From Chromatiaceae bacterium (GTDB lineage: Bacteria; Pseudomonadota; Gammaproteobacteria; SZUA-140), in the NCBI GenBank assembly GCA_003232725.1, contig QIJH01000199.1, positions 1 through 33,224 on the forward strand: a DNA stretch of 33,224 nt, in the 5' to 3' direction. The notes under the pieces are model-generated. The model saw only the letters and a program-made list of their open reading frames with translations, searched no databases and had not been told where the DNA came from. Every line of letters begins with the position of its first letter. The first letter of the stretch is position 1. Below are positions 6,269 to 30,207 of the stretch, piece after piece. The translations under genes were made by a program, and so were the position numbers.

Positions 6269-7012
6269 CTAACTCATACGCAATAACTGTGCCGACGCTT
6301 TGTCATTATCTTCCGCAGACTTCATCATTTTCACATTCATCTCAAATTGTCTTGATAGCGCAATCATCCCGACCATCGAATCAATCGCATTCACATTACT
6401 GCTTTCCAGCATGCCGGATGACAACGTCACTACAGCATCCGCCACGCTAATAGAACCATCATTAAGTCGCATCACACCATCATTGCCTTTCTGCATCGTA
6501 GCGGGATCAGGATTAACCATTTTTATCCGGTCAACCACCACCAACGTAGAAGCTGCCTGCCCAACCGGGCGTGCTGAGACCGTGCCATCTGACGCGATCT
6601 CAATCTTTTCCGAAGGCGGAATAATAATGGGCAGACCACTATTGCCTAATACCGGCTGACCACGATCAGTCTCAAGCTGACCACTAGCAGTAATACGAAA
6701 ATTACCGGCACGGGTAAAACCTTCGTTGCCATCTTTCGCCTGTATCGCAAACCAGCCATCACCGTTAATGGCGACATCTAATTCACGCCCTGTCGTCAAC
6801 ATTGCACCCTGAGAGAGGTTGATACCATTTTCTTGCGCAACACTATAAACACGGCTATCGTACCCTGCACCCTCTAAAGGCACACTCTGAAAAGCCGCTA
6901 GATCCGCGCGAAAACCAGTAGTGTTCACGTTTGCCAGGTTATTTGCATTCAGCGCCTGCGCCTTCATTGTGTGGCTGGCGCTAGACATCGCAAGATAGAG
7001 CATACGGTCCAT
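6269..7012 (-). CDS. flgF: Flagellar proximal rod protein FlgF
   Basis: FlgF is one of the proximal rod subunits exported through the flagellar system. The 247 residues begin MDRMLYLAMSSASHTMKAQA, the family-typical start, then [20 protein letters not shown]. The C-terminal D0 helix contains ESSNVNAIDSMVGMIALSRQ and FEMNVKMMKSAEDNDKASAQ. The start has a good ribosome site (AGGAGA, 7 bases upstream). It follows flgE by 29 bases and precedes flgG by 39. No internal promoter could be recognised in the short gap. In P. aeruginosa, flgF begins a separate transcript, which cannot be excluded here. Confidence 0.97.
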   Translation of the reverse strand: MDRMLYLAMSSASHTMKAQALNANNLANVNTTGFRADLAAFQSVPLEGAGYDSRVYSVAQENGINLSQGAMLTTGRELDVAINGDGWFAIQAKDGNEGFTRAGNFRITASGQLETDRGQPVLGNSGLPIIIPPSEKIEIASDGTVSARPVGQAASTLVVVDRIKMVNPDPATMQKGNDGVMRLNDGSISVADAVVTLSSGMLESSNVNAIDSMVGMIALSRQFEMNVKMMKSAEDNDKASAQLLRMS

Positions 7013-7041
7013 TGGTGGTCTCCTAAGTGATCAATAGTGAA

Positions 7042-8682
7042 TTAACGGATATTGATAATTGCCTGAGTAATGGTGTCTGCGGTTGAGATCACCTGCGCAT
7101 TCGCCTGAAAATTACGCTGCGCGGTAATCATGCCAACCAGCTGCTCGGTGAGATCCACATTCGAACCCTCTAGTGCTCCTGATTGCACCAGCCCTAAACC
7201 CGATGAACCCGGCTGAGCGATAACCGCCTGACCCGACTCAAACGACTCCGCCCAAGTGGTATCACCTAACTGGCGCAGCCCTTGTGGATTGGTAAAATTA
7301 GCCAGTCGAACCTGCCCCAGAATTTGCGTTTGGCCATTTGTAAATCGTGACAGCACAATGCCAGTATCACTGATATCGATGCCACTCAGCTGACCCGTTG
7401 AAAAACCATCCTGTGTGAGTGATGAAATACTAAAAGAACTACCAAACTGAGTGACACCTGAGATATCAACACTCATGGTAATCTGTGCTGCACCGCCACC
7501 CGGATTAAATGATATGGCGGGTAGATTAGGGCTTGGTGACTGCAACTGCCCTGAAGTATCAAACTGAACTGTCTGTCCCGGCTGGCCAACAGCCGCATCG
7601 ACTCGATTACCTTCTCTAAAGGTAAATACCTCCCATTGGTTTGCCTGTGTCGACTTTCGATAGTACTGCGTCAAGAGGTGTGGTGTGCCCTGAGAATCAA
7701 AGATCGTCATGGAGGTTGAATGGCTATAGGTCGTTGCATCATTTTCGCTAAAGGGTACTTGTGCGGCACCATTGTTCACCGTAGAAGCTGTACCGGCTGA
7801 AGTATCACCATCGGCAGCAGCCGCCAGCAGTGTGATGGCGGAAATATTAGTAGCGACAATAATCGGATCTTGCGCACCGCTGCCCGTTTGAGGTACCCAG
7901 CCAAAGTCAACCGAGCTTGGAGATGGATTAGCACCGCTTGTATCTATCGGTGAAGAACCAGGAAAAGTATTGCCTGAAACATTGTCACGCAGAGTAGCCG
8001 TCCAGGTATTAGCTGCCGTGTGGATATATTCAATCTGCACTGAGCGCTCAATACCATAATTATCGCGCATATTAAATGGCGTACCGATAATAGTAGAACC
8101 TACGGCCGGCGCTATTGGCGCATCTTCATCAAGAATCGTTGTAGCAGGCACGGTTAAACTCGAGGATGGAGTTGCACCTGGCACAGGTAACGATGAATTC
8201 AGGTTCAATGCAATCTCTGCCGTCGAAGTCGCTTGCGGTTCAATGTTATCAAAATTCAATTGCAAGTCACCGGTGGTATTGGTCAGATTGCCATTCGAGT
8301 CGGCAATATCACCCTGCAGGACCTGCCCCTGACTATTGGCAATAAAGCCATTGCGATCCACACCAAAGGCACCCGCGCGGGTATAAACACTCACACCACT
8401 ATCATTAAGTACAAACATCCCCTGTCCACTCACCGCCAGATCAAGGTTATTATCGGTAAAACCAATATTGCCCTGTGAAAACTGCTGTGTCACCGATGAA
8501 AGCTTTACACCACTACCAATAGCATTGGCTCCCGACCCCAGGTTCGATGAGGCAAAGATATCAGCAAACTCTGCACGAGCCTTTTTAAAACCCGTGGTGC
8601 TGGCATTGGCCACATTGTTACCGATAACACGAAGCTCTGATGATGCAGCGTTTAGCCCACTTAAGGCGATACGAAATGGCAT
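7042..8682 (-). CDS. flgE: Flagellar hook protein FlgE
   Basis: FlgE polymerises into the hook. At 546 residues it is longer than the enterobacterial protein (about 400), like many polar-flagellum hooks. The N-terminus (MPFRIALSGLNAASSELRVI, then NNVANASTTGFKKARAEF) and C-terminus (TEQLVGMITAQRNFQANAQV, ISTADTITQAI) are the conserved axial D0/D1 parts. The middle is a G/S/T/P-rich insertion of about residues 165-300, likely a solvent-exposed hook domain. A FlgE-type YSHSTSMTIFDSQGTPHLLT motif is visible near residues 318-337. The start has AGAGGAG about 8 bases upstream. FlgD, the hook cap, is encoded just before it. Confidence 0.97.
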   Translation of the reverse strand: MPFRIALSGLNAASSELRVIGNNVANASTTGFKKARAEFADIFASSNLGSGANAIGSGVKLSSVTQQFSQGNIGFTDNNLDLAVSGQGMFVLNDSGVSVYTRAGAFGVDRNGFIANSQGQVLQGDIADSNGNLTNTTGDLQLNFDNIEPQATSTAEIALNLNSSLPVPGATPSSSLTVPATTILDEDAPIAPAVGSTIIGTPFNMRDNYGIERSVQIEYIHTAANTWTATLRDNVSGNTFPGSSPIDTSGANPSPSSVDFGWVPQTGSGAQDPIIVATNISAITLLAAAADGDTSAGTASTVNNGAAQVPFSENDATTYSHSTSMTIFDSQGTPHLLTQYYRKSTQANQWEVFTFREGNRVDAAVGQPGQTVQFDTSGQLQSPSPNLPAISFNPGGGAAQITMSVDISGVTQFGSSFSISSLTQDGFSTGQLSGIDISDTGIVLSRFTNGQTQILGQVRLANFTNPQGLRQLGDTTWAESFESGQAVIAQPGSSGLGLVQSGALEGSNVDLTEQLVGMITAQRNFQANAQVISTADTITQAIINIR

Positions 8683-12309: not shown

Positions 12310-12336
12310 ATATCGTCCTGCCGACGCTGAACCTTA
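12310..12336 (-). promoter_or_regulatory. Sigma-28 (FliA) type promoter of cheV
   Basis: On the minus strand the site reads TAAGGTTC-N11-GACGATAT, matching six of eight bases in each half of TAAAGTTT-N11-GCCGATAA with exactly the consensus spacer. The -10 half is identical to that of the stronger site at 14193-14219, which supports a shared sigma factor. The predicted leader to the cheV ATG is about 30 bases. A competing sigma-54 reading of this strand (GG-N10-GC with a poor -12 box) is weaker. Confidence 0.6.
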
Positions 12337-12400: not shown

Positions 12401-13141
12401 ATGGCGTTCACCACAATGAATAAAAAAATGACAAAAACAATCGCTGCATTAGTTTGCACAAGCCTCATGTTATTACATGCAACACCATCATTTTCCCAAA
12501 ATTTTCAATCACATGAATCAATCAAATCAAGTGCCGAAAAATTCTTAATGGGAAAACTGGCCAACAGCTCTCGTGGCGAAATTGAGATTAACGTAACCAC
12601 TAGTCGGCTCGACCCGCGCCTTAGATTGCGGCAATGTAAGCGATCACTAGAACCATTTTTGCCGACAGGGGCAAATCTTAACGGCAATACAAGTGTTGGC
12701 ATTCGTTGCCAGGACAACAAACCATGGTCTCTCTATGTTTCAGCAAAAATCATCAAATATGCAGCGGTATTTGTGACCTCACGCTTCCTACCACGTGGCA
12801 CACAGCTAACAGCCAGTGATTTCTTACTTGAAAAACATGACATCAGCAACCGATCCATCGGCTACATCACTGATATTAGCGCCATTGAAGGGAAAATATT
12901 ACGCCGCCCATTGCGCCATAACAGCATCATTCCGCCCAACGCACTGGCTGAAGCGATGCTGATTAAAAGGGGTGACAATGTCACCATATTAGCTCAGAAC
13001 ACAAGCGTAAAGGTTCATATGAAGGGCAAAGCCCTCAAAAATGGCTCAAAAGGTGAAATCATTCGTGTTCGGAACCTCAGTTCCAAGCGAATAATTGAAG
13101 GAAAGGTACTCTCCGAAGGGGTTGTTGGTGTCCGCTTATAA
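12401..13141 (+). CDS. flgA: Flagellar basal body P-ring formation chaperone FlgA
   Basis: FlgA is a periplasmic chaperone needed for P-ring (FlgI) assembly. The 246 residues carry a Sec signal peptide (NKKMTKTIAALVCTSLMLLH, probable cleavage after SFS). A basic stretch RLDPRLRLRQCKRSLEPFLP follows at about residues 68-87, then a SAF-type domain (RFLPRGTQLTASD, GKILRRPLRHNSIIPPNAL). The C-terminal segment has VKVHMKGKALKNGSKGEIIR and ends VLSEGVVGVRL, typical of FlgA. The start is uncertain: ATGs occur at codons 1, 6 and 10, and none has a clear Shine-Dalgarno. The predicted mRNA leader is very short. It is divergent from cheV and followed by flgM. Confidence 0.92.
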   Translation: MAFTTMNKKMTKTIAALVCTSLMLLHATPSFSQNFQSHESIKSSAEKFLMGKLANSSRGEIEINVTTSRLDPRLRLRQCKRSLEPFLPTGANLNGNTSVGIRCQDNKPWSLYVSAKIIKYAAVFVTSRFLPRGTQLTASDFLLEKHDISNRSIGYITDISAIEGKILRRPLRHNSIIPPNALAEAMLIKRGDNVTILAQNTSVKVHMKGKALKNGSKGEIIRVRNLSSKRIIEGKVLSEGVVGVRL

Positions 13142-13168
13142 ATTACATTTGGCACGAGCGGGGTTTCT

Positions 13169-13195
13169 TAAGCGAGCTTCCTTGCAGGCCGATAT
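13169..13195 (+). promoter_or_regulatory. Possible sigma-28 type promoter of flgM
   Basis: GCCGATAT at 13188-13195 matches seven of eight bases of the sigma-28 -10 consensus. The -35 half at the correct 11-base spacing (TAAGCGAG) matches only its first three bases. The predicted start is near 13202, just before flgM. In related bacteria flgM is transcribed both by read-through from flgA and from its own FliA promoter, so this site is plausible but weak. Confidence 0.4.
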
Positions 13196-13217
13196 TAGTC
13201 ACATGAGGTTTTAAGTT

Positions 13218-13550
13218 ATGCCAATCGAAATTATTAATTTACCAACAGCACAACGCGCCAACGCCACCACAGGCACCAATGAAGGGGCAGCAACAGGGCG
13301 AGCTCAAGCTAACACCCCCTCTTCAAATCGACCTGAGAATGAAACTGACAACACCTCTAATATCGACACAGTCACATTCACTGAAACTGCGACACAATTG
13401 CAAGCAATCGCAACTGAAATTGAAGATATCCCCGTAGTAGACATGGCACGCGTCGAAGCGATTCAATATCGTCTTGAAAGTGGTAAATTCGAGATTGATA
13501 GCCAACAGCTGGCAGGCAATATATTGCGCCTTGAAAGACAACTATTTTAA
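13218..13550 (+). CDS. flgM: Anti-sigma-28 factor FlgM
   Basis: FlgM binds sigma-28 (FliA) in the cytoplasm and holds late flagellar genes off until it is exported through the completed hook-basal body. The 110-residue protein has a low-complexity, N/T/A-rich first half, expected for this largely unfolded family. Its C-terminal sigma-binding helices read VVDMARVEAIQYRLESGKFE followed by IDSQQLAGNILRLERQLF. The pattern D-x-x-R-V-x-x-I...G-x-[FY]-x-I-D is diagnostic. It lies between flgA and flgN. It gains interest because an HsbA-like protein, known in P. aeruginosa to act on FlgM, is encoded about 11 kb downstream. Confidence 0.94.
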   Translation: MPIEIINLPTAQRANATTGTNEGAATGRAQANTPSSNRPENETDNTSNIDTVTFTETATQLQAIATEIEDIPVVDMARVEAIQYRLESGKFEIDSQQLAGNILRLERQLF

Positions 13551-13581
13551 CTGAAACAATTAAGGAAAAGGTATCACTGCG

Positions 13582-14031
13582 ATGAAGAGCAATAACCAAT
13601 CATTCAAAGAAAACTTAATCAATGAAGAACTGAGAGGCGCTAGCGAGTTGCTTTCTTTACTCAAGAAAGAACATCTAGCACTTTCTAACCCGAAAACAAG
13701 CGCAGCAGAAATTTTCAGCCTTGCCAGACAAAAAGAGCATAAAATAAGCACTTTAGAGCAAGCGAGCCAGAATAGAATGGCACAACTCTCCTCCAGCGAC
13801 CCTGAGCTACTCACTCCACCGCTTAAATCTCAATGGCAGCAACTACAAGTACTGGCACACGATTGTCAGCAACAAAACCAGATTAATGGCATCATTATCC
13901 ATTCGACAAAGAATTTCATCGAACAGGCTAGCGCCATCCTTATAGGAAAGGGTCCCACGATAGAGCTCCAATACGGTCGTTCAGGTAAAACCGTCAAGCA
14001 AAGTCAAACACGCACGATCGCTAAAGCCTAA
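13582..14031 (+). CDS. flgN: Flagellar export chaperone FlgN family
   Basis: FlgN is a cytoplasmic chaperone that holds FlgK and FlgL for export. The 149-residue protein is predicted almost wholly helical. It has the family pattern of an N-terminal leucine-rich helix (ELLSLLKKEHLALSNPKTSA, about residues 22-41), a central K/E-rich helix (IFSLARQKEHKISTLEQASQ) and a C-terminal Q/N-rich helix ending in basic residues. Sequence conservation in this family is low, so the call relies on helix pattern, length and position directly after flgM. The start has AAGGAAAAGG upstream. No long hairpin-plus-U terminator was seen after it. Confidence 0.85.
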   Translation: MKSNNQSFKENLINEELRGASELLSLLKKEHLALSNPKTSAAEIFSLARQKEHKISTLEQASQNRMAQLSSSDPELLTPPLKSQWQQLQVLAHDCQQQNQINGIIIHSTKNFIEQASAILIGKGPTIELQYGRSGKTVKQSQTRTIAKA

Positions 14032-14192
14032 ATATTCATGCGACACAGATAAGTAAGCCTCAAACCCACTACCTTATTCCCCAAGCATATCAATAAGCCT
14101 TAAAGATAGCCTTCAAACTGTCGACACAGACTCAGTCAGAACTGCCTCCTTATGCAATTTCAGACCACGAATATCACGGACTTGACATTCGT

Positions 14193-14219
14193 TAAAGTTT
14201 TAGATTTGACTGACGATAT
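14193..14219 (+). promoter_or_regulatory. Strong sigma-28 (FliA) type promoter of the chemosensory operon
   Basis: The site reads TAAAGTTT-N11-GACGATAT. The -35 half is an exact eight-of-eight match to the FliA consensus, the spacer is exactly 11, and the -10 half matches six of eight with the core CGATA intact. The predicted start is near 14226. The promoter lies inside the longest open frame of the following STAS gene, so that gene must begin downstream, at 14251 or 14275. It places the STAS-cheY-cheA-cheW-MCP-cheR-cheD-cheB operon in the late flagellar gene class. Confidence 0.8.
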
Positions 14220-14274
14220 CTGGATTGAAGTAACAACCAAATATTGTCGCATGATCACCAAGGACGAAAAATCA

Positions 14275-14592
14275 ATGGCTAAAAATACCAAAAAAAATAA
14301 GTCTACACAACAAGATAACGTGATTGACTGCGGCGACCTGCTAGATATTTCGATGGTCAATGAGATCAATCAAAAGCTAAAAGACTCCCTTAGCTCCGGC
14401 TATGACATCTCCATTAACATATCAAACATAGAACGCATTGACACAGCAGGTGCTCAAATGTTGTGTGCATTTTATCAAGATGCGAAGTCAAAAAAAATCA
14501 AATGTGAATGGACTACCCCGTCAGATATATTTTCAAAATCAATAGAACAATTAGGCCTTAGTGAACATCTTGGGATTTCAGCCAGCCGTTAG
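14275..14592 (+). CDS. STAS-domain protein at the head of the che operon
   Basis: STAS domains act in partner switching or as small binding modules. From the chosen start the protein has 105 residues, of which about 15-103 form one STAS domain (VIDCGDLLDISMVNEINQKL, then the signature IERIDTAGAQMLCAFYQDA). The position usually phosphorylated in anti-sigma antagonists is Thr57 (DTAG) rather than the DSS of the second STAS protein in this window. The frame is open back to 14152, but a near-perfect sigma-28 promoter (14193-14219) lies within that extension. AAGGA is present ten bases before the ATG at 14275. An ATG at 14251 is the alternative. Function in chemotaxis is not established; it could bind the operon's kinase or receptor. 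Confidence 0.8.
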   Translation: MAKNTKKNKSTQQDNVIDCGDLLDISMVNEINQKLKDSLSSGYDISINISNIERIDTAGAQMLCAFYQDAKSKKIKCEWTTPSDIFSKSIEQLGLSEHLGISASR

Positions 14593-14645: not shown

Positions 14646-15008
14646 ATGGCAAGTATTCTAGCAGTGGACGATTCGGCATCAATGCGTCAAATGGTCTCTT
14701 TTGCGTTAAAGAATGCAGGGCATGATGTCGTAGAAGCTATTGATGGCGTTGATGGCCTGAAAGCAGCTCAGGCAAATAAAGTAAACCTGGTAATCACAGA
14801 CGTCAATATGCCTAACATGGATGGTATTGCGCTAATCAGAGAATTACGTAATCTTCCCGATTACAAATTCACTCCAATATTAATGCTCACAACTGAATCT
14901 GCTCCTCATAAAAAACAGGAGGGGAAAGATGCTGGTGCCACTGGCTGGATTGTTAAGCCATTTGACCCGGATCAACTACTGGCAACCATCAATAAAGTGC
15001 TGGGGTGA
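14646..15008 (+). CDS. cheY: Chemotaxis response regulator CheY
   Basis: A 120-residue stand-alone receiver domain. The acidic pair is D8/D9 (ILAVDDSASMRQMV), the phosphoacceptor is D52 (TDVNMPNMDG), the conserved Thr is T82 and the Lys is K104 (WIVKPF). Trp occurs where E. coli CheY has Tyr106. It would receive phosphate from the CheA encoded next. It may either act on the flagellar switch or serve as a phosphate sink for another CheY; the sequence does not decide. The ribosome site (AAGGAGATTAAATT before ATG) is identical over 17 bases to that of cheW in the same operon. No cheZ occurs in the window. Confidence 0.94.
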   Translation: MASILAVDDSASMRQMVSFALKNAGHDVVEAIDGVDGLKAAQANKVNLVITDVNMPNMDGIALIRELRNLPDYKFTPILMLTTESAPHKKQEGKDAGATGWIVKPFDPDQLLATINKVLG

Positions 15009-15014
15009 TCTGAA

Positions 15015-17081
15015 ATGACAATAGACATTACACAGTTTCACGAGACTTTCTTTGAAGAGAGCTTCGAAGGACTAGACATCATGGAATCGGGGTTATTAAA
15101 CCTGGATATTGGCGCAGCAGATAATGATACCGTCAATTCAATTTTCCGCGCGGCACATTCAATTAAAGGTGGCAGTGCAACCTTCGGGTTTAGCGAGGTC
15201 GCAGAGTTTACCCATGGCATGGAAACACTGCTGGATGAAATGCGCGACGGCAGCCGTGATGTAACACAAGGGTCTGTTGACACACTCCTCCAGTCCGTTG
15301 ACTGTTTACGTGAAATGCTGGCGGCATCAAGAGACAAAACACCGATCGACACAGAACGTGCTGCTGTAGTAAAAGGTGAATTAGAAGAAATTTTAGCCTC
15401 AGGCAACAACAATGCCGAAACTAACAGCGTTAAAAAACCTGAAACTGCTGACACACCAGAAGCATGTGGAAATCGCGCAGGGTGGCAGATAAAATTCAAA
15501 CCCCACCATGATATGCTGAGAACGGGAAATGACCCGGTTAGAATGTTTAGAGAGCTAGCAGAGCTAGGTGAGCTTGCAGTTGAAGTTAATATTTCACAGC
15601 TACCAATACTAGATGACCTTGACCCAGAGGAGTCATATTTATCATGGGCATTGACACTCAAATCAAATGTTGAAATTGAAAAGGTTAAGGAAATTTTTGA
15701 ATGGGTTGAAGATGAATGTGACTTTGAGATAACTGAGATCGAAGTTGATGCTCCTCACGCTAATGAAGTAGGAAAAAGGGGAGGTATTACAAGTAAGGCA
15801 GAAGTGACACCCGTCACAGCAGCAAAACCAGCGGGGAGTAAGGCAACGGTCAATACTGATAGTGCATCCATTCGAGTCAGTATCGATAAGGTAGATGCGC
15901 TTATTAATATGGTTGGTGAGCTGGTTATAACACAATCAATGATTGGACAGCTCGACTGTGATTTTGATGACTTTGATATCAGCCGTATGGAAAAACTTCG
16001 CGATGGCCTGACATTACTAGAGCGAAATACCAGAGAGCTTCAAGAGAGTGTCATGCGTATACGCATGTTGCCAATCAGCTTTGCATTTAACCGATTTCCA
16101 AGAATGGTACATGATCTTTGCCAAAAACTAGATAAAAAAATAGAGCTAAAAACTACTGGGGAACAAACCGAATTAGATAAAACTGTGATGGAGAAAATCG
16201 GTGACCCACTTGTCCATCTGGTTAGGAATTCAATCGATCATGGTATTGAAATTCCAGAAGATCGCTTAAAAGCGGGTAAGCCCGAATTTGGTACGATTGA
16301 GTTGAATGCATTCCATAAGGGTGGAAACATTATTATAGAGATTAAGGATGATGGCGCAGGGTTTAATAAAGAAAGAATAAAGGCAAAGGCGATTGAAAAA
16401 GAACTGATCGGAAGTGATGAAATACTTTCAGATGAAAAAATATATGACCTGCTTTTTCAACCAGGATTCTCAACCGCCGAACAGTTGAGCGATGTATCAG
16501 GGCGCGGTGTTGGCATGGATGTGGTGAGAAGAAACATTAGAGAACTCGGTGGAAATATTGACGTGACATCAGAAGAAGGCATTGGTACCACATTTACAAT
16601 AAGGCTGCCATTGACACTTGCCATTCTTGATGGACAGCTTGTTTGTGTCGGCGATGAGATTTACATCACCCCACTGGTTTCAATCGTTGAATCACTACAA
16701 ATTAAACAAGAATTTGTGAATAACATCGCAGGTCAGACTGAGCTTTATAAAGTTCGCGATGACTATATTCCTATCGTGAGAATGCACGATATGTTCGGCA
16801 TTAACATCAAAAGAAAAGGCCTTGAAGGTGGCTTACTTGTCGTTGTTGAAGGTGATGGAAAAAAAGCAGGTTTACTGGTCGATGAATTACTTGGACAACA
16901 ACAAGTCGTGATTAAGAGTTTAGAAACTAATTACAAACGTGTCGATGGCGTTTCAGGGGCAACCATTCTGGGAGATGGAACAGTTGCATTAATTCTGGAT
17001 GTAGATGGATTAATTGATTTATCACGAAACCCACCTACATCAAGTAGCACTCCAGAAAATAGTGTAAGGGATGTTGCGTAA
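15015..17081 (+). CDS. cheA: Chemotaxis histidine kinase CheA
   Basis: CheA is the central kinase of the receptor array. Its 688 residues contain P1 with the phosphorylated His48 (RAAHSIKGGSATFGF), then a linker and a P2-like region (about 155-245, ending DECDFEITEIE). The P3 dimerisation helices follow (about 285-370, VDALINMVGELVITQS). The P4 ATP-binding domain has an N box (VHLVRNSIDHGIE, 400-412), DDGAGF (445-450) and GRGVGMDVV (497-505). The P5 CheW-like domain runs from about 535 to the end. The domain layout is complete, so it should be an active kinase. It begins six bases after cheY. Gene order matches the P. aeruginosa Che2 cluster. Confidence 0.96.
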   Translation: MTIDITQFHETFFEESFEGLDIMESGLLNLDIGAADNDTVNSIFRAAHSIKGGSATFGFSEVAEFTHGMETLLDEMRDGSRDVTQGSVDTLLQSVDCLREMLAASRDKTPIDTERAAVVKGELEEILASGNNNAETNSVKKPETADTPEACGNRAGWQIKFKPHHDMLRTGNDPVRMFRELAELGELAVEVNISQLPILDDLDPEESYLSWALTLKSNVEIEKVKEIFEWVEDECDFEITEIEVDAPHANEVGKRGGITSKAEVTPVTAAKPAGSKATVNTDSASIRVSIDKVDALINMVGELVITQSMIGQLDCDFDDFDISRMEKLRDGLTLLERNTRELQESVMRIRMLPISFAFNRFPRMVHDLCQKLDKKIELKTTGEQTELDKTVMEKIGDPLVHLVRNSIDHGIEIPEDRLKAGKPEFGTIELNAFHKGGNIIIEIKDDGAGFNKERIKAKAIEKELIGSDEILSDEKIYDLLFQPGFSTAEQLSDVSGRGVGMDVVRRNIRELGGNIDVTSEEGIGTTFTIRLPLTLAILDGQLVCVGDEIYITPLVSIVESLQIKQEFVNNIAGQTELYKVRDDYIPIVRMHDMFGINIKRKGLEGGLLVVVEGDGKKAGLLVDELLGQQQVVIKSLETNYKRVDGVSGATILGDGTVALILDVDGLIDLSRNPPTSSSTPENSVRDVA

Positions 17082-17093
17082 GGAGATTAAATT

Positions 17094-17606
17094 ATGAGTA
17101 CAGCACAATATGTCGATACAAACACCTCAGTTGATGTCATGACAGATACAGATCAATACCTCACATTTATTCTTGCAGGTGAAGAGTATGGCGTCGATAT
17201 TTTACGCGTACAGGAGATAAAAGGCTGGGACAGTGTGACCCCTATTCCCAATACACCCAACTATATTAAAGGGGTCATTAACCTTCGCGGTACGATTGTA
17301 CCAATCATCGATTTAAGGCACCGATTTTCACTCGATGAAATCCCTTATGGGGCAACAACGGTTGTAATCGTGCTAAAAGTCACCGGCGAAAATGGCAATA
17401 GAATAATGGGGATCGTCGTTGATGCTGTTTCCGATGTATATAACGTAGCTGCCGAAGAGATGAAGCCACCACCTGATTTTGGAGCAATTAGCATTGACTA
17501 TGTTAAAGGCCTTGCAACGGTAGAAGAAAAAATGGTGATCGTGCTTGAAATCGATAAATTACTGAATAGTGGGGTAATGGATACAAGCGAAGCATTACCT
17601 CAATAA
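17094..17606 (+). CDS. cheW: Chemotaxis coupling protein CheW
   Basis: CheW links receptors to CheA. The 170-residue protein is a single CheW domain: YLTFILAGEEYGVDILRVQE, VTPIPNTPNYIKGVINLRGT, VPIIDLRHRF, and a C-terminal MVIVLEIDKLL strand. The short N-terminal extension (about 24 residues) and C-terminal tail are unremarkable. It follows cheA by 12 bases with a strong AAGGAG ribosome site. It presumably couples the large soluble receptor encoded about 275 bases downstream. Confidence 0.96.
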   Translation: MSTAQYVDTNTSVDVMTDTDQYLTFILAGEEYGVDILRVQEIKGWDSVTPIPNTPNYIKGVINLRGTIVPIIDLRHRFSLDEIPYGATTVVIVLKVTGENGNRIMGIVVDAVSDVYNVAAEEMKPPPDFGAISIDYVKGLATVEEKMVIVLEIDKLLNSGVMDTSEALPQ

Positions 17607-17830: not shown

Positions 17831-17884
17831 ATGCCGATTAAAACAGCAATAGAATTATCTTCAAATGGAGTAGTGATAAGATGA
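17831..17884 (+). CDS. 17-residue leader peptide overlapping the chemoreceptor start
   Basis: This tiny frame ([17 protein letters not shown]) has a better ribosome site than the gene it precedes: GGGAGA six to seven bases before its ATG. Its TGA stop overlaps the receptor's ATG as ATGA. This arrangement is typical of translational coupling, so the peptide may exist mainly to deliver ribosomes to the receptor gene. The receptor also has its own weaker GGAG ten bases upstream, inside the leader. Confidence 0.45.
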
Positions 17885-20691
17885 AATCATCACTCAAAAA
17901 ACCAGATGAAGTAGTGGAATTAGATATTTTATTAATTGAAAGTAGCTTTGAGAAACTAGCCCCCAAAGCGGCTCAAATATCAAAACTATTCTATAAAGAA
18001 CTGTTTATAAGGCATCCAGATGTAAAGCCTTTGTTTAAAAACACCCGCATCAAAGAACAGGAAAAAAAACTTGTATCAGCACTCTCCACTGTCGTTAGCA
18101 GCCTGAGAAAACCTGATGAACTAAAGGCCGTACTATCCTCTTTGGGTGAAAAACATATTCAATATGGTGCAGAACCTGAACATTATGAGGCAGTGGTAGC
18201 CACATTACTTGATGTAATGAAACAAGTTGCCGCAGATGAATGGTCAGGAGAAATCGAAAATGTGTGGCAACAGGCATTAAATAGCGTCGCGGCTACAATG
18301 ATAGGTAATCACAGGAAAATGGAGAATTCAACCATGGCATCAGCTACAAAATCAGTAAAATCTGGAATTAATGCAGTCAAAGATATCAATACAATGCGCA
18401 TGCAGGCAGCAGTTGATAACGCCATGACACCATTCATGATGATTGATTTAGACCTAGTCATCACATATGCAAATGAAGCAACTATCAAGTTATTGAAAAA
18501 AAATGAAGCAGCATTAGTCTCTCTTTTTCCGGGATTTTCAGTTGATAGCATTGTAGGTACGTGTATTGACATATTTCATAGGGATCCATCTCATCAAAGA
18601 AAGATTTTAGGAAATCCTGCAAACATGCCTTACTCTACCGATATTCAGGTCGGCCCATTAAAATTCAACATCAATGCCAGCGCAATTGTAGACCATGATG
18701 GAAATCACTTGGGAAATTCGCTTGAGTGGGCTGATGTCACTGAAGTAAGAGAAAAAGAAAATGGCGTAATGCGCTTACAGTCGACCATTGATAATGCCAT
18801 GACTTCCATCATGATGATCGATAGAGACCTCGTGATCACCTATGCTAATGACTCAACCGTCGCCTTATTGAGATCTCATGAAAGCGCGCTCAGGTCTGTC
18901 TACCCAGGGTTTGAAGTCAGTAACATCATTGGCACCTGTATCGATATATTCCATGCAAACCCAGCACACCAGAGACAGATGTTAAACAACCCTAATAACC
19001 TGCCCTACTCCACTGACATTGCAGTGGGCCCATTAAAATTTAGAATCAATGTCAGTGCCATGCTTGATAGCAGTGGCGAATATATCGGAAATTCACTTGA
19101 ATGGTCCGATGTAACAGAGCAACGTAAAAAAGAACTAGAGGTGGCTAGATTACAATCAGCCATTAATGGTGCACAAACGAATATGATGCTGTGTGACACA
19201 GACCTCACTATTACATACGTCAATCCAGCAGTGGTTCAGATGCTGATCAAACGTGAAACAGAACTTCGTGCCGCATTCCCAGGATTTGACCCACACAATT
19301 TGGTCGGTCAGTGTATTGATCAATTTCATAAGAACCCTTCACACCAACGTGCACTGCTTGGTAATAAAAACAACCTTCCAGCTAAAGCTGAAATACGCGT
19401 GGCAGATCTCGAATTCGAGGTTAATGCAACAGCAATTATCGACGGTGAAGGGAATTTAATGGGCAATATGGTTGAATGGCGAGACATCACCGAACAAAAA
19501 GATGCTGAACGCCAAATGCAAGCGCTGATTAATGCGGCATCTGCTGGTGACCTGTCTCAGAGAATTGACTCTTCCTCATATGAGGGTTTCATGAAAACCC
19601 TTTCCGATGGTATCAACCAGATGTTAGATGCAGTGGTTGCCCCTGTACAAGAAGGCACCAGAGTGATGAAAGCACTTGCAGAAGGTGATCTCTCTCAAAA
19701 CATGAATGGTGAATATGAAGGTGATTTCGCTATATTACAGGAGGCGATAGATACCTCAGTTAATAACCTTCGTAATATGGTCGGTGATATAAGAGAAGCA
19801 GCGTCTGCCATCACATCTGGCGCGGGAGAAATCGCACAGGGTAATCAAGACTTGAGCCAGCGTACAGAAGAGCAGGCTTCCTCACTCGAAGAGACAGCCT
19901 CAAGCATGGAACAGCTAACAGGGACAGTAAAGCAAAATGCTGATAATGCAAACCAGGCAAATCAGCTTGCTAGTGGTGCACGGGAACAAGCAGAAAAAGG
20001 TGGAAAAGTTGTTGGAAATGCAGTATCAGCGATGTCTGAAATCAATGCCAGTAGTAAGAAAATTGCTGACATCATCAGTGTCATTGATGAAATTGCCTTC
20101 CAGACGAATTTACTTGCACTAAATGCTGCCGTTGAGGCTGCCCGTGCAGGTGAACAAGGAAGAGGCTTTGCAGTAGTCGCTGGTGAAGTCAGAAACCTGG
20201 CACAACGTAGTGCCGCTGCTGCTAAAGAAATTAAAGCATTAATTAACGATAGTGTTGAGAAGGTTGATGAAGGAAGCAAACTGGTTGATGAATCAGGAAA
20301 AACACTAGAAGAGATCGTAACTGCCGTGAAAAAGGTAAGTGATATTATTGCCGAAATTGCCGCAGCCAGTCAGGAACAATCCACCGGAATAGATCAGGTC
20401 AATAAAGCGATCATCCAGATGGATGAAGTAACGCAACAGAATGCCGCCCTGGTTGAAGAGGCCGCAGCTGCAAGTGAGTCAATGGATGAACAGTCTAAAG
20501 GGCTATCGCAACTCATGGCATTTTTTGGTTCAGATGATGATCATGAAAGTACACCAGCAAAAGAAAAAGCAAAAATCAAGGTTAACAGCAGCATGCCAAA
20601 ATCACGAGTAAGTGCACCGAGAAAAGAGACAGCTCCACGCTCAAAACAGAAAAGTCCCTCCCTCGACAGTGACGAATGGGAAGAGTTCTAA
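17881..20691 (+). CDS. Soluble globin-PAS-PAS-PAS-HAMP chemoreceptor (Aer2-like MCP) with EWEEF tether
   Basis: A 936-residue cytoplasmic chemoreceptor without membrane segments. Residues about 20-145 form a globin: FYKELF (Tyr38, B10), HPDVKPLF (Phe52, CD1), Gln60 (E7) and [14 protein letters not shown] with proximal His92. Three PAS repeats of exactly 125 residues follow (about 174-548). Each has FH-x2-P-x-HQ and [LV]EW, so His233/Trp283, His358/Trp408 and His483/Trp533 correspond to the heme-binding pair of Aer2 PAS domains. HAMP-like repeats ([16 protein letters not shown]) span about 545-640. The signalling domain has its hairpin tip at 735-775 ([20 protein letters not shown]). The C-terminus EWEEF is a CheR/CheB-binding pentapeptide, like GWEEF of P. 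aeruginosa Aer2. Likely ligands are O2, CO or NO (inference). It is probably methylated by the next-encoded CheR and deamidated by CheD/CheB. Confidence 0.93.
18400..19524 (+). repeat. Three tandem PAS-coding repeats, 375 bases each
   Basis: Residues 174-298, 299-423 and 424-548 of the chemoreceptor are successive copies of the same PAS domain with no length change, so the coding repeat is exactly 375 bases. Shared landmarks are DLVITYAN, the PGF segment, ID-x-FH, HQR, VGPLKF and the EW motif. Copies 1 and 2 are closest at protein level; copy 3 is more diverged (VADLEF, VEWRDI). DNA identity is moderate, indicating an old duplication. Confidence 0.85.
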
Positions 20692-20725: not shown

Positions 20726-21559
20726 ATGGAAAAAGTTCGCGATTTCGACTTTACTGACAGGGATTTCGAGAAGGTAAGAACCCTTGTCAAAAATCACACA
20801 GGAATCTCATTATCTGATGCAAAAAAGGACATGGTTTACAGTCGCCTATCCAGACGGCTGAGAAGCCTTGAAATTGATCGGTTTTCAGATTATTGCGCTC
20901 TTGTTGAAGGTGGTGATGATGCTGAACTTATTAAATTCACGAATGCCATCACAACTAACCTGACTGCATTTTTCAGGGAAGATCACCATTTCCAGCACCT
21001 CGCAAAGACACTCATCCCGGCGCTGATTAAATCCAACAGTGATAAACGGATTAGAATTTGGTCTGCAGGCTGTTCGACAGGAGAAGAGCCTTATTCACTC
21101 GCAATTGCGATGAAAGAGGCCATTCCATCGATTGATTCATGGGATGTGAAAATATTGGCAACCGACCTCGATTCTGATGTATTAAATACAGCTAAAAATG
21201 GTGTCTACAACAGTGATCGAATTGACGGTTTGAGCAGTGGACGAAAGAAAAAATGGTTCCTCAAAGGAAAAGGTGATAACGCTGGCACAGTACGAGTGAG
21301 AACTGAACTTCAGGATTTGATCACCTTCAAACAACTTAATCTATTAAATGAATGGCCAACAAAAGGACCATTTGATTTTATATTTTGCAGAAATGTCGTT
21401 ATCTATTTCGATAAAGAGACACAGAAAATTCTATTTGACAGGTATGCCAATATTTTAAAAAATGATGCACATCTATTTATAGGCCACTCTGAATCACTCT
21501 TTAAAGTATCTGATCGATTCAATCTACTTGGGCAAACTATCTATAAAAAAATAAAATAA
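20726..21559 (+). CDS. cheR: Chemotaxis methyltransferase CheR (tether-dependent type)
   Basis: The second CheR of the window, 277 residues. The N-terminal domain has TNLTAFFREDHHF, and the SAM pocket is RIWSAGCSTGEEPYS (110-124), followed by ATDLDSDVLNTA and FCRNVVIYFD. The beta-subdomain loop FLKGKGDNAGTVRV (178-191) aligns without a gap to the loop of E. coli CheR that binds the receptor pentapeptide. The flg-operon CheR is about four residues shorter there. It is encoded directly after a receptor ending in EWEEF, so a dedicated enzyme-receptor pair is likely, as with CheR2 and Aer2/McpB of P. aeruginosa. Its start has no strong ribosome site and lies 34 bases after the receptor gene. Confidence 0.94.
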   Translation: MEKVRDFDFTDRDFEKVRTLVKNHTGISLSDAKKDMVYSRLSRRLRSLEIDRFSDYCALVEGGDDAELIKFTNAITTNLTAFFREDHHFQHLAKTLIPALIKSNSDKRIRIWSAGCSTGEEPYSLAIAMKEAIPSIDSWDVKILATDLDSDVLNTAKNGVYNSDRIDGLSSGRKKKWFLKGKGDNAGTVRVRTELQDLITFKQLNLLNEWPTKGPFDFIFCRNVVIYFDKETQKILFDRYANILKNDAHLFIGHSESLFKVSDRFNLLGQTIYKKIK

Positions 21560-21574: not shown

Positions 21575-22207
21575 ATGACATTATGCAGCGAAAAAGATGT
21601 CCAGATGGAAAAATGCCTGCCTGGATTTTCTCATATCAATCGTTACTGGGATAAGCAGAATGAAACTATTTCTGCAAAGATACTACCAGGTCAATTTTAT
21701 GTCACCAAAGAAAATGAAGCCATTGTAACGGTTTTAGGTTCCTGTATTTCGGCATGCATACGTGACCCTCAGGCGGGAATAGGTGGCATGAACCATTTTA
21801 TGCTGCCAGCTGATAATAGTGGGAATGGCACCAAGATCAGTGAATCGGCACGCTATGGGAACTTCGCCATGGAAATGTTAATAAATGAAATATTAAAGAA
21901 TGGCGGAAAAAAGGAAAACCTTGAGGTAAAGGTTTTTGGCGGTGGGAAAATCTTAAGAAACATGACTGATGTAGGAGAACGGAATATTGAGTTCGCTGTG
22001 ACTTATATAAAAACTGAAGGGCTAAACCTGCTCTCAAGTGATGTGGGGTCACCTCACCCAAGGAAAGTGTATTATTTTCCCGATTCCGGTCGTGTGCGCA
22101 TTAAAAAATTAAGAAAACTTCATAATGAAACTGTCATTGATCGTGAAAAAGACTACATGAAAGATCTCATCAAGAAACCAGTCACAAGTGATATCGAACT
22201 ATTCTGA
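21575..22207 (+). CDS. cheD: Chemoreceptor glutamine deamidase CheD
   Basis: CheD converts receptor glutamines to glutamates. The 210-residue protein has the catalytic Cys57 in VTVLGSCISACI and His74 in GGMNHFML, with the same 17-residue spacing as in characterised CheD. It also has the family segments ESARYGNFAMEMLINEILK, VKVFGGGKILRNM and VGSPHPRKVYYFPDSGRV. The N-terminus is somewhat extended (about 30 residues before the core). The C-terminus ends SDIELF, closely resembling EVELF at the end of the MCP-like protein encoded from 23386. The ribosome site GGAAGGAA is strong. It sits between cheR and cheB, nine bases before the cheB start. Confidence 0.95.
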   Translation: MTLCSEKDVQMEKCLPGFSHINRYWDKQNETISAKILPGQFYVTKENEAIVTVLGSCISACIRDPQAGIGGMNHFMLPADNSGNGTKISESARYGNFAMEMLINEILKNGGKKENLEVKVFGGGKILRNMTDVGERNIEFAVTYIKTEGLNLLSSDVGSPHPRKVYYFPDSGRVRIKKLRKLHNETVIDREKDYMKDLIKKPVTSDIELF

Positions 22208-22216: not shown

Positions 22217-23308
22217 ATGAGCAATAAAATAAAAGTACTCATCGTTGATGACTCATCTCTGATTCGCAAGCTTCTTGGGGAAATACTATCAACTGATAAA
22301 GGTATCGAGGTTGTTGGAACGGCACAAGACCCATTCGCAGCTAGAGAAAAAATAAAGAAACTCAAACCAGATGTGATTACGCTTGATGTTGAGATGCCGC
22401 GTATGGATGGCATCACATTCCTCAAAAATCTAATGCGATTACACCCCATACCAGTCATTATGATCTCATCACTCACCGAAAAGGGGGCAGATATAACACT
22501 AGAAGCACTTGAATCGGGTGCGGTTGATTTCATCTCTAAACCAAAATTAGACATTGCACATTCATTACCTGATTATAGCTACGAAATTATCAGTAAAGTA
22601 AAAGCAGCCTCAAATGCAAATGTCCATGCCATGACACAATCTACCTCGTCAATTGGCGAAGTAATAGCCAAGAATTCAGCAGATGTCATCTTAGAAAAAA
22701 ACAGTCGTACGACTAAGCGTCATTTCAAAACTACCGATATCATTATTGCACTAGGTGCTTCAACAGGTGGTACTGAAGCAATTAAAGAGGTTCTGATGAA
22801 AATGCCGGCAGATGCACCTGGAATGGTCATTTCACAACATATACCAGAAGCCTTTAGCGCTCCTTTCGCTAAAAGGATGAACAGCTGTTCTGCAATGACA
22901 GTATATGAAGCTCACGATGGACAACAAATACTTCCTGGCCATGTATATATTGCACCGGGAAGCCACCATTTACTGATTGAACGAGATGGTGCACGTTTTG
23001 TCTGTCGTTTAAATGATGGTCCAGCTGTCAACAGACATCGTCCCTCTGTCGATGTTATGTTCCGCTCAGTCGCTCAAAATGTCGGCCACAATGCCATTGG
23101 GGTGATACTTACTGGCATGGGTGATGATGGTGCAGCAGGTATGAAAGAGTTAAATGAAGCAGGTGCGGCAACTATCGCTCAGGATGAAAAAACAAGTGTT
23201 GTATGGGGCATGCCTGGTGAGGCCGTAAAAGCAGGTGGCGTGGATAGTATACTGCCGCTTAATTCTGTATCAGCAAAGATAATCACACTTGCCAAGAGAA
23301 TCAAATAA
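22217..23308 (+). CDS. cheB: Chemotaxis methylesterase/glutaminase response regulator CheB
   Basis: CheB removes receptor methyl groups when phosphorylated by CheA. The 363 residues comprise a receiver domain (D11/D12, phosphoacceptor D57 in TLDVEMPRMDG) and a linker with a poorly conserved stretch (about 130-170). The C-terminal methylesterase domain has the catalytic triad Ser182 (ALGASTGGTEA), His208 (ISQHIPEAF) and Asp304 (LTGMGDDGAAG). The spacing of the triad (26 and 122 residues) equals that of E. coli CheB. It closes the cheY-to-cheB block; the next gene has its own promoter. Confidence 0.96.
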   Translation: MSNKIKVLIVDDSSLIRKLLGEILSTDKGIEVVGTAQDPFAAREKIKKLKPDVITLDVEMPRMDGITFLKNLMRLHPIPVIMISSLTEKGADITLEALESGAVDFISKPKLDIAHSLPDYSYEIISKVKAASNANVHAMTQSTSSIGEVIAKNSADVILEKNSRTTKRHFKTTDIIIALGASTGGTEAIKEVLMKMPADAPGMVISQHIPEAFSAPFAKRMNSCSAMTVYEAHDGQQILPGHVYIAPGSHHLLIERDGARFVCRLNDGPAVNRHRPSVDVMFRSVAQNVGHNAIGVILTGMGDDGAAGMKELNEAGAATIAQDEKTSVVWGMPGEAVKAGGVDSILPLNSVSAKIITLAKRIK

Positions 23309-23317: not shown

Positions 23318-23344
23318 TAAAGTTCCATTTTTTGAGACCGATAA
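23318..23344 (+). promoter_or_regulatory. Sigma-28 (FliA) type promoter of the MCP-like gene
   Basis: The site is TAAAGTTC-N11-ACCGATAA. Each half matches seven of eight consensus bases, and the spacer is exactly 11, making this the closest overall match to the FliA consensus seen in the window. The predicted start is near 23351, about 35 bases before the ATG at 23386. It would let the MCP-like gene and the hsbA/hsbR/hybrid-kinase block be expressed independently of the che operon, but still as late flagellar genes. Confidence 0.78.
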
Positions 23345-23385: not shown

Positions 23386-24609
23386 ATGAGCGCATACTTT
23401 AAAAATTACTTTTTACCAATTACCGCAAGCATTATTCTTACCGCACTACTAATGAGTGGTGGCTACGAATCAGCAGAGATTCCTGTCCTCGCCATTGCGT
23501 TATCCTTATGGGTCTACGCCTCGTTAAAATTTCAGTCATTTGTCAGCACGAATGTAGCAGCCAAAGAAGAAAAAAACCAATCTGAAACATCAAACCATGA
23601 AAACTTGGTCGACTTCGTAACCATTATAAATGATGCACTCAATACAGAAGTTGAAAGCTCATGTAAAGAGCTAAGACAGGCTCGAGGCGTTGTTGGTGAT
23701 GCGGTCTCGAAGCTGGGAGGTAGTTTTAGCGGCTTAAATAATGACATACAGAAGCAAAAAGGCATGGTTGTTTCACTAATTGACAATGTATCGGGGGCAT
23801 CTCTAAAAGGGACTGGTGGCGATGAGAAGGCTATCGGTATCAAGGAATTTGCAAATGAAACCTCTGAAATCCTCACATACTTCATTGATCTTTTAGTCAA
23901 TGTTAGTAAACAGAGTATTGAAACAGTACATAAGATAGATGACATGGTCTATCAAATGGATGAAATATTTAAGCTCTTGGAAGATATTAAGACCATTGCT
24001 GACCAAACTAGCTTACTTGCACTTAATGCCGCCATTGAAGCTGCACATGCAGGTGAAGCTGGTCGTGGCTTTGCAGTGGTAGCAGATGAAGTTAGAAAAC
24101 TATCCCAGCATTCAAATAAATTTAATGATGAAATCAGAAGCCATGTAGAAAAGACTAGAGTATCAATTTTTGATGCGAGAAAGATTGTGGGTGACGTCGC
24201 ATCTAAAGATATGAATATGGCAATATCCGCTAAAAGCAGAGTGGATATGATGCTTGATGAGGTGGGAAAAATGAATAGCCGCGTCTCTGACAATCTTGGT
24301 GAAGTTTCATTAATCTCAGACAACATTAATAACAATGTAAATCAGGCTGTACGAGGCCTTCAGTTTGAAGATATTGTTAGCCAGCAAATCGATTCATCTC
24401 AAAAATACCTTGAAAAGCTAAAAGGATTTTCAAATAATATACTCAGTAGTCTTTCTGATATGAACACTGAAGAGAGTCAAATTACATACGATGAATCTAT
24501 TAATGAACTAAAGTCGAAGCTGCAAGAATCAAGATCAAATTTAAACCATGAACGAGATAAACCAGCACACCAGGAATCAATTGTTGAAGGTGAAGTCGAA
24601 CTCTTCTAA
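23386..24609 (+). CDS. Short membrane-anchored MCP-like protein without a sensor domain
   Basis: A 407-residue protein. Two adjacent hydrophobic segments at about 8-25 and 31-48 form a membrane hairpin with only a few residues between them, so there is no periplasmic ligand domain. After a variable helical region comes an MCP signalling core with the conserved tip [20 protein letters not shown] and [15 protein letters not shown] (about 206-240). There is no HAMP or PAS. The C-terminus ends GEVELF, resembling the CheD tail and unlike the EWEEF tether. Possible roles are an array organiser, a sensor of membrane or electron-transport state, or a scaffold; none is shown. The ribosome site is weak. 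A strong sigma-28 promoter precedes it. Confidence 0.85.
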
Positions 24610-24657: not shown

Positions 24658-24966
24658 ATGGCGTTAACAACTCAATTATCTAATGATGGCTCATCTCTCA
24701 CCATTTCGATCACTGGCCGTTTTGATTTTAATTTATATAAAGATTTCAGAGATGCATATGAAGGGGGCCTAGAAAAAGGCAACATAAAGTTCATCATCAA
24801 CCTTTCACAGACTGAATATATGGATAGTTCAGCCCTCGGTATGCTTCTAGTGCTAAAAGAACGGATAGGAGGTGGAGACTCTGCTGTTGTCCTTAAAAAT
24901 TGTAACAAAGAGATAAAAAACATTCTATCAATCTCAAATTTTGACAAGCTTTTTAGCATAGAATAA
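24658..24966 (+). CDS. hsbA: STAS anti-sigma-factor antagonist, HsbA-like
   Basis: A 102-residue single STAS domain. The conserved phosphorylation motif is EYMDSSALGMLLVLKE, with Ser57 as the likely site. The N-terminal part (ITGRFDFNLYKDFRDAYEGG) and the end (IKNILSISNFDKLF) resemble P. aeruginosa HsbA as I recall it. In that species HsbA is phosphorylated or dephosphorylated by HsbR. Unphosphorylated HsbA promotes flagellar gene expression by engaging FlgM, and phosphorylated HsbA acts with a diguanylate cyclase. The HsbR-like gene follows after 45 bases, which strongly supports the pairing. The ribosome site is AGGTAA, six bases before ATG. Orthology is inferred from sequence recall and context. 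Confidence 0.82.
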   Translation: MALTTQLSNDGSSLTISITGRFDFNLYKDFRDAYEGGLEKGNIKFIINLSQTEYMDSSALGMLLVLKERIGGGDSAVVLKNCNKEIKNILSISNFDKLFSIE

Positions 24967-25011: not shown

Positions 25012-26748
25012 ATGGATGATGTAGGTATTAACATTACTGGCGTGGCAAGTGCGAATAATAAAGACGCCCTTTCAGTCCTTATCGTTGATGACGATAAGAC
25101 AAATAGACTGATTCTCTCTACACTCATTAAAAAATTAGGCTATACCGTTATTTCTGCCATCAATGGGGAAGAAGCGGTGGAGATGTATGCTAATAATCAT
25201 CCCGATATTATATTAATGGATGTCATGATGCCCGTCATGAATGGCTATGATGCGGCGGTAGAGATAAAGCGAATATGCTGCGAAGTGTTTGTCCCGATTA
25301 TTTTTCTGACAGCAATAACAGATGAAAATGCATTAGCAAAATGCATCGAATATGGCGGTGATGATTTCATAATAAAACCATACAACAGCATCATCATAAA
25401 GGCTAAAATTGATGCGATGGTACGCGTACGTGAATTGTATAATCATATCGCCGATAGTAAATCAGCATTACAAGAGCATCACAGTCGTCTGCAATTAGAA
25501 CATGAAATTGCAGAAACAATATTTACGAACATTACTAATCCAAAGAACCTTGAGATAGAGAATATTAAATACCTGCTCAAGCCTATGTCAATTACCAGTG
25601 GTGATATATTACTTTGCTCACGAACACCATCGGGTGGCATGCATGTAATGCTAGGTGACTTTACCGGCCATGGCCTTTCCGCTGCCATAGGTGCTATTCC
25701 TGTGTCTGACACCTTTTATAGTCTTTCATCTAAAGGCTACTCTATCGGTGACATTGCATTCAATATCAATAAACGCCTAAAAGAGACATTACCGTCAGGT
25801 TTTTTTTGTGCGGCATGCCTGATAGAGGCGGATGAAGCATTCAGGACTGTTGCGGTTTGGAACGGTGGAAACCCAGATATTATTATTACAACAAATGACG
25901 GCCCGCCAATCAAAATCCCATCAAGCCACCTCCCCTTAGGTGTTCTGAATAGTGACAACCTTGATAGAAGTGTAGAATTTATTGAACTTGGCCCCAATGA
26001 TAAGATTTACATGGTATCTGATGGTATCATCGAAGCTCAAAACAGTCAGGGTAATATGTACACACAGCAGAAGCTGGACAACGTAATACTTGAAGCGCAA
26101 AAAAGTAGCAATCCATTTTCTACTATAGAAAACTCTATCAATGAATTTTGCATAAATGCCGAACAGTTTGATGATATTACACTGATAGAAATCACTGCAA
26201 AACCACTTGATATTTACGACAATACACAGACTGAAAATAATAACCAGGCACTGGCAGTAGTCAATTGGGGGCTGTCAATAAAATTAGGCGCAGGAGCATT
26301 ACAACAGACCAATCCATGCCCACTTATTACTCAATCTATAATGGAAATCCAGGGCTTATCAGAACACCGCGAAAGGATATACACAATACTTTCAGAATTA
26401 TATTCAAATTCACTAGAACACGGAATACTTAAACTGGATTCCTCTATCAAAGAAAACCCACAAGGATTTATTCAGTACTATAATGCTAGAGAATTGGCTC
26501 TATCAAACCTCCAGGACTCCTCGATTGAGATTTTAGTTGAGCATCACCCACTACCTTCTAATAGCGGTGGAAATATCATCATAATTATTGAAGATACAGG
26601 TACTGGATTTGATATATCAAGCAGTCATAGCTCACTAATAGACAATAAAAATTCTCATGGCCGAGGCATTAACCTTGTTAAATCACTCTGCACCTTTCTT
26701 TCATATACTAACGGAGGAACCAGGGTTGAAGCACATTATCAGTGGTAG
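25012..26748 (+). CDS. hsbR: HsbR-like response regulator with PP2C phosphatase and anti-sigma-type kinase domains
   Basis: The 578 residues have three parts. A receiver spans about 20-140 (LIVDDDKTNRL, phosphoacceptor Asp70 in LMDVMMPVMNG, Lys122 in IIKPY). A SpoIIE/PP2C phosphatase spans about 185-395 with all metal motifs: SGD at 196-198, GDFTGHG at 215-221, SDGIIEA at 336-342 and QFDDITL at 385-391. A C-terminal RsbW-like HATPase spans about 435-575, with SELYSNSLEHG (461-471), EDTGTGFD (527-534) and GRGINLV (550-556). This architecture is that of P. aeruginosa HsbR (about 570 residues), which sets the phosphorylation of HsbA. Its receiver would be fed by the Hpt protein encoded 3 kb downstream. 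No clear ribosome site precedes the ATG. Confidence 0.9.
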   Translation: MDDVGINITGVASANNKDALSVLIVDDDKTNRLILSTLIKKLGYTVISAINGEEAVEMYANNHPDIILMDVMMPVMNGYDAAVEIKRICCEVFVPIIFLTAITDENALAKCIEYGGDDFIIKPYNSIIIKAKIDAMVRVRELYNHIADSKSALQEHHSRLQLEHEIAETIFTNITNPKNLEIENIKYLLKPMSITSGDILLCSRTPSGGMHVMLGDFTGHGLSAAIGAIPVSDTFYSLSSKGYSIGDIAFNINKRLKETLPSGFFCAACLIEADEAFRTVAVWNGGNPDIIITTNDGPPIKIPSSHLPLGVLNSDNLDRSVEFIELGPNDKIYMVSDGIIEAQNSQGNMYTQQKLDNVILEAQKSSNPFSTIENSINEFCINAEQFDDITLIEITAKPLDIYDNTQTENNNQALAVVNWGLSIKLGAGALQQTNPCPLITQSIMEIQGLSEHRERIYTILSELYSNSLEHGILKLDSSIKENPQGFIQYYNARELALSNLQDSSIEILVEHHPLPSNSGGNIIIIIEDTGTGFDISSSHSSLIDNKNSHGRGINLVKSLCTFLSYTNGGTRVEAHYQW

Positions 26749-29824: not shown

Positions 29825-30155
29825 AGATTCTCTTGACGATACAGCAGTGGCAGCACTGAAAGAGGCAACAGAAGAGATGTTTTCTGAGATTATCGAGGTC
29901 TATCTAGAAGACACACCCAAGCGGCTATCATTACTTATGAAAGCTTTTGAAACAAATAACGTTAATGCAATGCAGGAAGAGTCACATTGCCTAAAAGGAA
30001 GCAGTGGGAATATTGGCGCATTGAAGTTATCAAAGATTTGTGCCGAAATCGAAAGCCAATCTAAAGCTGGGGTTATCACGAATCAGAATGAATACATACA
30101 ACATGCATTTAGTGAATTTGATTATATTAAGAAAAAACTCATAGCTCTTGTATAA
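29805..30155 (+). CDS. hptB: Histidine phosphotransfer protein, HptB-like
   Basis: A 116-residue stand-alone Hpt domain of four to five helices. The phosphorylated His is His61 in EESHCLKGSSGNIGALKL. The frame starts with tandem ATGs (29805 and 29808) inside the last codons of the preceding hybrid kinase gene, a 20-base overlap that suggests coupled translation; AGAGG lies six bases upstream. In P. aeruginosa HptB collects phosphate from several hybrid kinases and passes it to HsbR, and its gene is next to hsbR and hsbA. Here hsbA-like, hsbR-like and this Hpt gene are in one run flanked by two hybrid kinases. The symbol is assigned on context as well as sequence. Confidence 0.82.
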   Translation: MMNVLNEDSLDDTAVAALKEATEEMFSEIIEVYLEDTPKRLSLLMKAFETNNVNAMQEESHCLKGSSGNIGALKLSKICAEIESQSKAGVITNQNEYIQHAFSEFDYIKKKLIALV

Positions 30156-30207
30156 AGCATGAAATAACAATAACATTACATTAAACATATGAGGTTGGAC
30201 TACTCTC

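Follow-up and report, generated by a model that had tools for sequence, protein, structure and literature searches.

A predicted sigma-28 promoter upstream of an F7 chemosensory operon and its recurrence before STAS-headed F7 operons of Gammaproteobacteria

A predicted sigma-28 (FliA) promoter, P1, lies directly ahead of an F7 chemosensory operon in a 33,224-nucleotide stretch of Chromatiaceae DNA (hereafter the window). Our reading, to which we assign a probability of about 0.9, is that P1 drives the operon from its head gene STAS1 onward, with translation starting at ATG 14275, that a second sigma-28 promoter precedes mcpA, that the operon is expressed with the late flagellar genes, and that this arrangement is widespread. 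In the proposed mechanism, transcription of the F7 operon would proceed from P1 through STAS1 and beyond, the second promoter would serve mcpA, and the Aer2/oxygen-sensing array, together with the partner-switch genes, would first be expressed once the hook is complete and FlgM has been exported. What is new is the association, recurring across the class, of a predicted flagellar promoter with the array, rather than the single site. Coordinates are collected in Table 1.

Table 1. Predicted promoters and genes of the F7 operon and its flagellar neighbours (window positions).
Feature	Positions	Strand	Remarks
Sigma-28-like site of cheV	12310..12336	-	12/16; 23 bases 5' of cheV start
flgA, flgM (anti-sigma-28), flgN	12401..14031	+	Same strand, directly 5' of F7 operon
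Possible weaker second site, P2	14101..14127	+	TAAAGATA-N11-GTCGACAC, 11/16; tentative
Sigma-28 (FliA) promoter P1	14193..14219	+	-35 TAAAGTTT 14193-14200, N11 14201-14211, -10 GACGATAT 14212-14219
Shine-Dalgarno-like AAGGA	14260..14264	+	10 bases 5' of ATG 14275; GGGA in relatives
STAS1, operon head gene	14275..14592	+	105 aa; STAS/STAS_2 domains
F7-type CheY	14646..15008	+	
CheA, F7 type	15015..17081	+	
CheW	17094..17606	+	Single copy
Aer2-like soluble receptor	17881..20691	+	N-terminal globin, PAS, HAMP, MCP signalling domains
CheR	20726..21559	+	
CheD	21575..22207	+	
CheB	22217..23308	+	
Second sigma-28 promoter (predicted), intra-operon	23318..23344	+	TAAAGTTC-N11-ACCGATAA, 14/16; 41 bases 5' of mcpA
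McpA-like receptor	23386..24609	+	
STAS2, CrsA/HsbA-like	24658..24966	+	DSSALG phosphorylation motif
CrsR/HsbR-like protein	25012..26748	+	Receiver, SpoIIE/PP2C phosphatase, weak HATPase_c_2

P1 matches the E. coli sigma-28 consensus, TAAAGTTT-N11-GCCGATAA, at 14 of 16 positions, its two mismatches reflecting a -10 element that reads GACGATAT rather than GCCGATAA, and the predicted transcript start is at approximately 14225-14228. The fliC promoter of six congeners, TAAAGATT-N11-TCCGATAA, likewise scores 14/16 and serves as a yardstick for the genus. With up to three mismatches allowed, the consensus occurs three times in the window, against 0.41 expected from shuffles, and the pattern TMAAGTTT-N11-GMCGATAW has two exact matches in the 2.66 Mb assembly, one of which is P1. 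The other (G000:C68:1998-2024, L005) lies 115 bases upstream of a gene for a 164-residue receiver-domain protein. When the window species was aligned with five congeners carrying the orthologous operon (six species in total), none of the 16 box positions varied, whereas 29% of the neighbouring columns were invariant, a pattern with a chance probability of about 2.5e-9 if columns are assumed to be independent. The genome encodes FliA (TIGR02479, 273.6 bits, above cut-off), and its anti-sigma factor FlgM is encoded within the window. The placement of a sigma-28 promoter inside the apparent STAS gene, made in an earlier sequence-only reading, is borne out by the 14/16 match, the N11 spacing, and the invariance of the boxes in six species. 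P1 is thus well supported, at the level of sequence, as a real sigma-28 promoter, and transcription from it would depend on FliA. A TTGACA at 14182-14187, considered as a sigma-70 -35 element, was rejected as unconserved and lacking a partner -10.

P1 falls within the longest ATG frame of the STAS gene, 14152-14592, and 55 bases upstream of ATG 14275. Were the longest frame correct, STAS1 would begin at 14152 and the boxes would be promoter-like coding sequence, a reading with which the frame itself agrees insofar as it is open back to 14110 in the window and is also open upstream in two relatives (L047 and L049). However, ATG 14275 directly follows a TAA in L050 and L051, and L048 carries a frameshift, so that the frame is disrupted in three of the five relatives; no upstream ATG is conserved, and every base position of the promoter is, which together make a start at 14152 scarcely credible. 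ATG 14275, by contrast, is kept in all six species. Because the upstream frame is unconserved whereas this ATG is present throughout, a start at ATG 14275 is well supported, and the conserved stretch preceding it would represent promoter and leader and not protein. Of the two starts previously put forward, 14275 therefore stands and 14251, whose ATG is missing from the relatives, was rejected, as was 14152 owing to the disrupted frame.

The position of P1 behind a flagellar gene cluster raises the question of read-through. STAS1 begins 243 bases after the end of flgN (14031), which lies on the same strand, and no terminator-like site was found downstream of flgN in this gap, as would suit an operon transcribed mostly from the class II/III flagellar promoters of flgAMN, with the site at 14193 being minor or a relic. 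Under such an arrangement the invariance of both P1 boxes would be hard to reconcile with the conservation of just 14% of columns in the gap between flgN and P1. Moreover, L047 and L050 keep P1 although a YcgR/PilZ gene intervenes between it and flgN (7045-7782 and 6973-7701, respectively), and in most other families the site is present without an adjoining flgN. Read-through as the main source of the transcript is therefore very unlikely, although it could contribute to expression. The intervening gene in L047 and L050 indicates that P1 occupies an intergenic space of its own and is not by design part of the flgN transcript. This YcgR/PilZ flagellar brake gene is missing between flgN and STAS in the window (14032-14192) and in L049.

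Additional sigma-28-like sites were identified nearby. The tentative P2 recurs with equal spacing in L047, L050, and L051 (11-12/16), is weaker in L048, and is absent in L049. The sequence-only reading had counted a transcript beginning upstream of 14152 as evidence against P1; given P2 and possible read-through from flgAMN, such a transcript would not carry that meaning. The site preceding mcpA is kept in L070, L071, and L072, and that of cheV is kept in L047 and weaker in the other relatives; none was found upstream of flgM or of the F7-operon cheY. As to the earlier proposal that the Aer2-like operon belongs to the flagellar regulon, P1 and the pre-mcpA site speak for it, and co-expression with the late flagellar genes is likely, judged from these predicted promoters.

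The gene order equals that described for stage 1 F7 systems by Ortega et al. (2020, PMC7184735), namely, anti-sigma antagonist, cheY, cheA, cheW, aer2, cheR, cheD, cheB, mcpA, anti-sigma antagonist, and serine phosphatase, and, as in stage 1 genomes, an F6 set with cheZ is located elsewhere (a fliA, cheY, cheZ, cheA, cheB run on contig C3). The operon is stage-1-like rather than strictly stage 1, in that it has one cheW where stage 1 has two, and its assignment to F7 is based on the order of its genes together with CheD and Aer2. It further differs in adjoining flgAMN and in carrying predicted sigma-28 promoters; the words "FliA" and "promoter" occur zero times in the main text of PMC7184735. 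The Aer2-like receptor scores 1064 bits against the aer2 model, under the cut-off of 1200. Its globin spans residues 37-140, N-terminal to PAS and HAMP, and approximately 26 of the 60 F7 loci surveyed below encode a related globin stretch, so that haem sensors of two kinds may coexist in one F7 array. Downstream of the operon on the same strand (26822-32280), the window encodes a PAS hybrid kinase, an Hpt protein, and a second hybrid kinase, a set that resembles HptB-type relay inputs.

To place P1 in a broader context, 60 F7 cheA loci, taken from genomes sampled evenly across the Gammaproteobacteria, were surveyed by scoring the 250 bases upstream of the head gene, with 200 dinucleotide shuffles and the reversed pattern as the null. 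Among the 36 STAS-headed loci (window included), 25 carried a site of at least 12/16, compared to a shuffle mean of 0.69 and maximum of 3, and 18 one of at least 13/16 (shuffle mean 0.08); the reversed pattern had no matches upstream of these 36. Sites were found in 6 of 17 cheY-headed and 1 of 6 cheA-headed loci. A prediction stated beforehand was then applied to 12 unused STAS-headed loci, seven of which reached at least 12/16, against 0.27 expected. With both sets combined and spacers of 10-12 bases, 35/48 STAS-headed operons reached at least 12/16 (2.6 expected from shuffles) and 24/48 at least 13/16 (0.32 expected). The site-bearing operons span about 20 gammaproteobacterial families; about a quarter of STAS-headed F7 operons lack the site. 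Of the 60 survey genomes, 55 encode FliA; the site is absent from four of the five that do not, although these numbers are small; in G136 (L115), the site is present and the assembly contains no FliA. STAS-headed F7 operons of Gammaproteobacteria thus widely carry a predicted sigma-28 promoter. The possibility that the wiring is peculiar to organisms with F7 genes beside flagellar genes was rejected, as such adjacency (L093, L103, L107, L127, L136, and L138, with fliA beside F7 in L089 and L122) is uncommon and the promoter common.

P. aeruginosa Che2 and V. cholerae cluster III, described as stage 2 and stage 1 F7 systems, respectively, share with the operon analysed here the core proteins and an Aer2-type oxygen receptor, but both are associated with stationary phase in the literature, and the V. 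cholerae cluster is RpoS-dependent (PMC7534058). No sigma-28 site was found before STAS in the F7 cluster of Vibrio sp. THAF64, which fits the reported RpoS control in V. cholerae (PMC7534058). With STAS-headed F7 operons in about 20 families carrying the predicted promoter, P. aeruginosa, known here from the literature alone, and Vibrio look like departures from sigma-28 wiring. The contrast with P. aeruginosa drawn in the sequence-only reading thus holds according to the literature, but its direction is reversed: the well-studied models seem to be the unusual ones. A search of open-licence papers turned up no earlier account of stage 1 F7 operons being controlled by sigma-28.

The che operons of E. 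coli, a stage 5 F7 system, are FliA-dependent. F7-class genes would thus be under sigma-28 in both organisms, with FliA dependence being predicted for the operon described here. E. coli, however, has lost the STAS genes, the Aer2-type receptor, and cheD and has gained cheZ, whereas the present F7 operon retains these ancestral parts and coexists with a separate F6 set. The E. coli chemotaxis array is a descendant of F7 systems, and a sigma-28 promoter on most STAS-headed F7 operons would mean that the ancestral system was made during completion of the flagellum. This suggests that F7 was in the flagellar regulon prior to taking over the motor, so that some of the regulatory change behind its repurposing may be older than the mechanical change. 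We infer the ancestral status of the sigma-28 tie from its wide recurrence, a quick CheA tree being poorly resolved at its base. More generally, the role of F7 in stages 1 and 2 is considered unclear in the literature, where work on Vibrio, Shewanella, and Pseudomonas has looked to stress responses for it; the predicted promoters suggest that this presumed stress system is turned on along with the flagellum. This cautions against generalising from RpoS-controlled model species, and expression in the flagellar phase would render F7 function testable.

An alternative would be that the operon serves stress responses under RpoS control, as in V. cholerae, with the sigma-28 site only contributing on top of this. 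Two precedents point in this direction, the reported RpoS dependence of V. cholerae cluster III (PMC7534058) and the tie between S. oneidensis Che1 and RpoS via CrsR-CrsA (PMC9855816). Against them, no RpoS over the family cut-off was found in the source genome (92% complete) or seven congeners, of which two are 99% complete; the search yields only RpoD- and RpoH-like matches. Moreover, four other genomes that lack RpoS (G179, G209, G278, and G089) likewise have an F7 operon with the sigma-28 site. RpoS control is accordingly highly improbable for this operon, and the reading of an F7 operon driven from P1 is preferred. The genus (G000 and its fellow members) appears to be without RpoS altogether, even though a CrsR/HsbR-like partner switch is present.

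The receiver and SpoIIE domains of the CrsR/HsbR-like protein are clear, whereas its HATPase_c_2 domain scores 20.5 bits, under the cut-off of 27.4; STAS2 has a phosphorylatable serine motif. In STAS1, the phospho-serine position is alanine in 30 of 36 STAS1 proteins, including that of the window (DTAG), and the protein scores 25.3 bits against the anti-anti-sigma family TIGR00377, under the cut-off of 53.45; with the serine missing and the score below cut-off, STAS1 is probably not a classical switch protein. The HsbA-HsbR and CrsA-CrsR systems (PMC6482189) likewise combine a STAS2-type protein and a receiver-PP2C protein with an Hpt protein nearby, but here the pair lies inside the F7 operon itself, and RpoS, the target of CrsR and HsbR, was not found. 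In Shewanella and Pseudomonas, the partner switch is known to act on RpoS (PMC9855816, PMC6482189). The four RpoS-less genomes named above keep the STAS2/receiver-phosphatase pair as well as the site, and, as RpoS is absent from them, the pair needs a different target. The homologue HsbA of P. aeruginosa, when unphosphorylated, binds FlgM and frees FliA (PMC6482189); a hypothetical circuit in which sigma-28 activates the F7 operon, whose partner switch acts back on FlgM, is therefore possible. A more far-reaching proposal, which we consider doubtful, would hold that the ancestral sigma tie of F7 is to the flagellum and not to stress, that STAS2 and the receiver-phosphatase return an oxygen signal to FlgM/FliA as the sole sigma output in RpoS-less lineages, and that the RpoS link in Vibrio, Shewanella, and Pseudomonas is secondary.

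Two further arrangements were observed among the surveyed loci. The F7 operon of L107, without a sigma-28 site of its own, is located directly downstream of flgI-flgJ-flgK-flgL, a second way of joining the flagellar regulon. An extra fliA gene lies beside F7 in L089 (541-1206, minus strand) and L122 (7245-7997, minus strand), whose genomes, G054 and G242, encode two FliA proteins each; these could represent an F7-dedicated sigma-28 or part of a second flagellar system.
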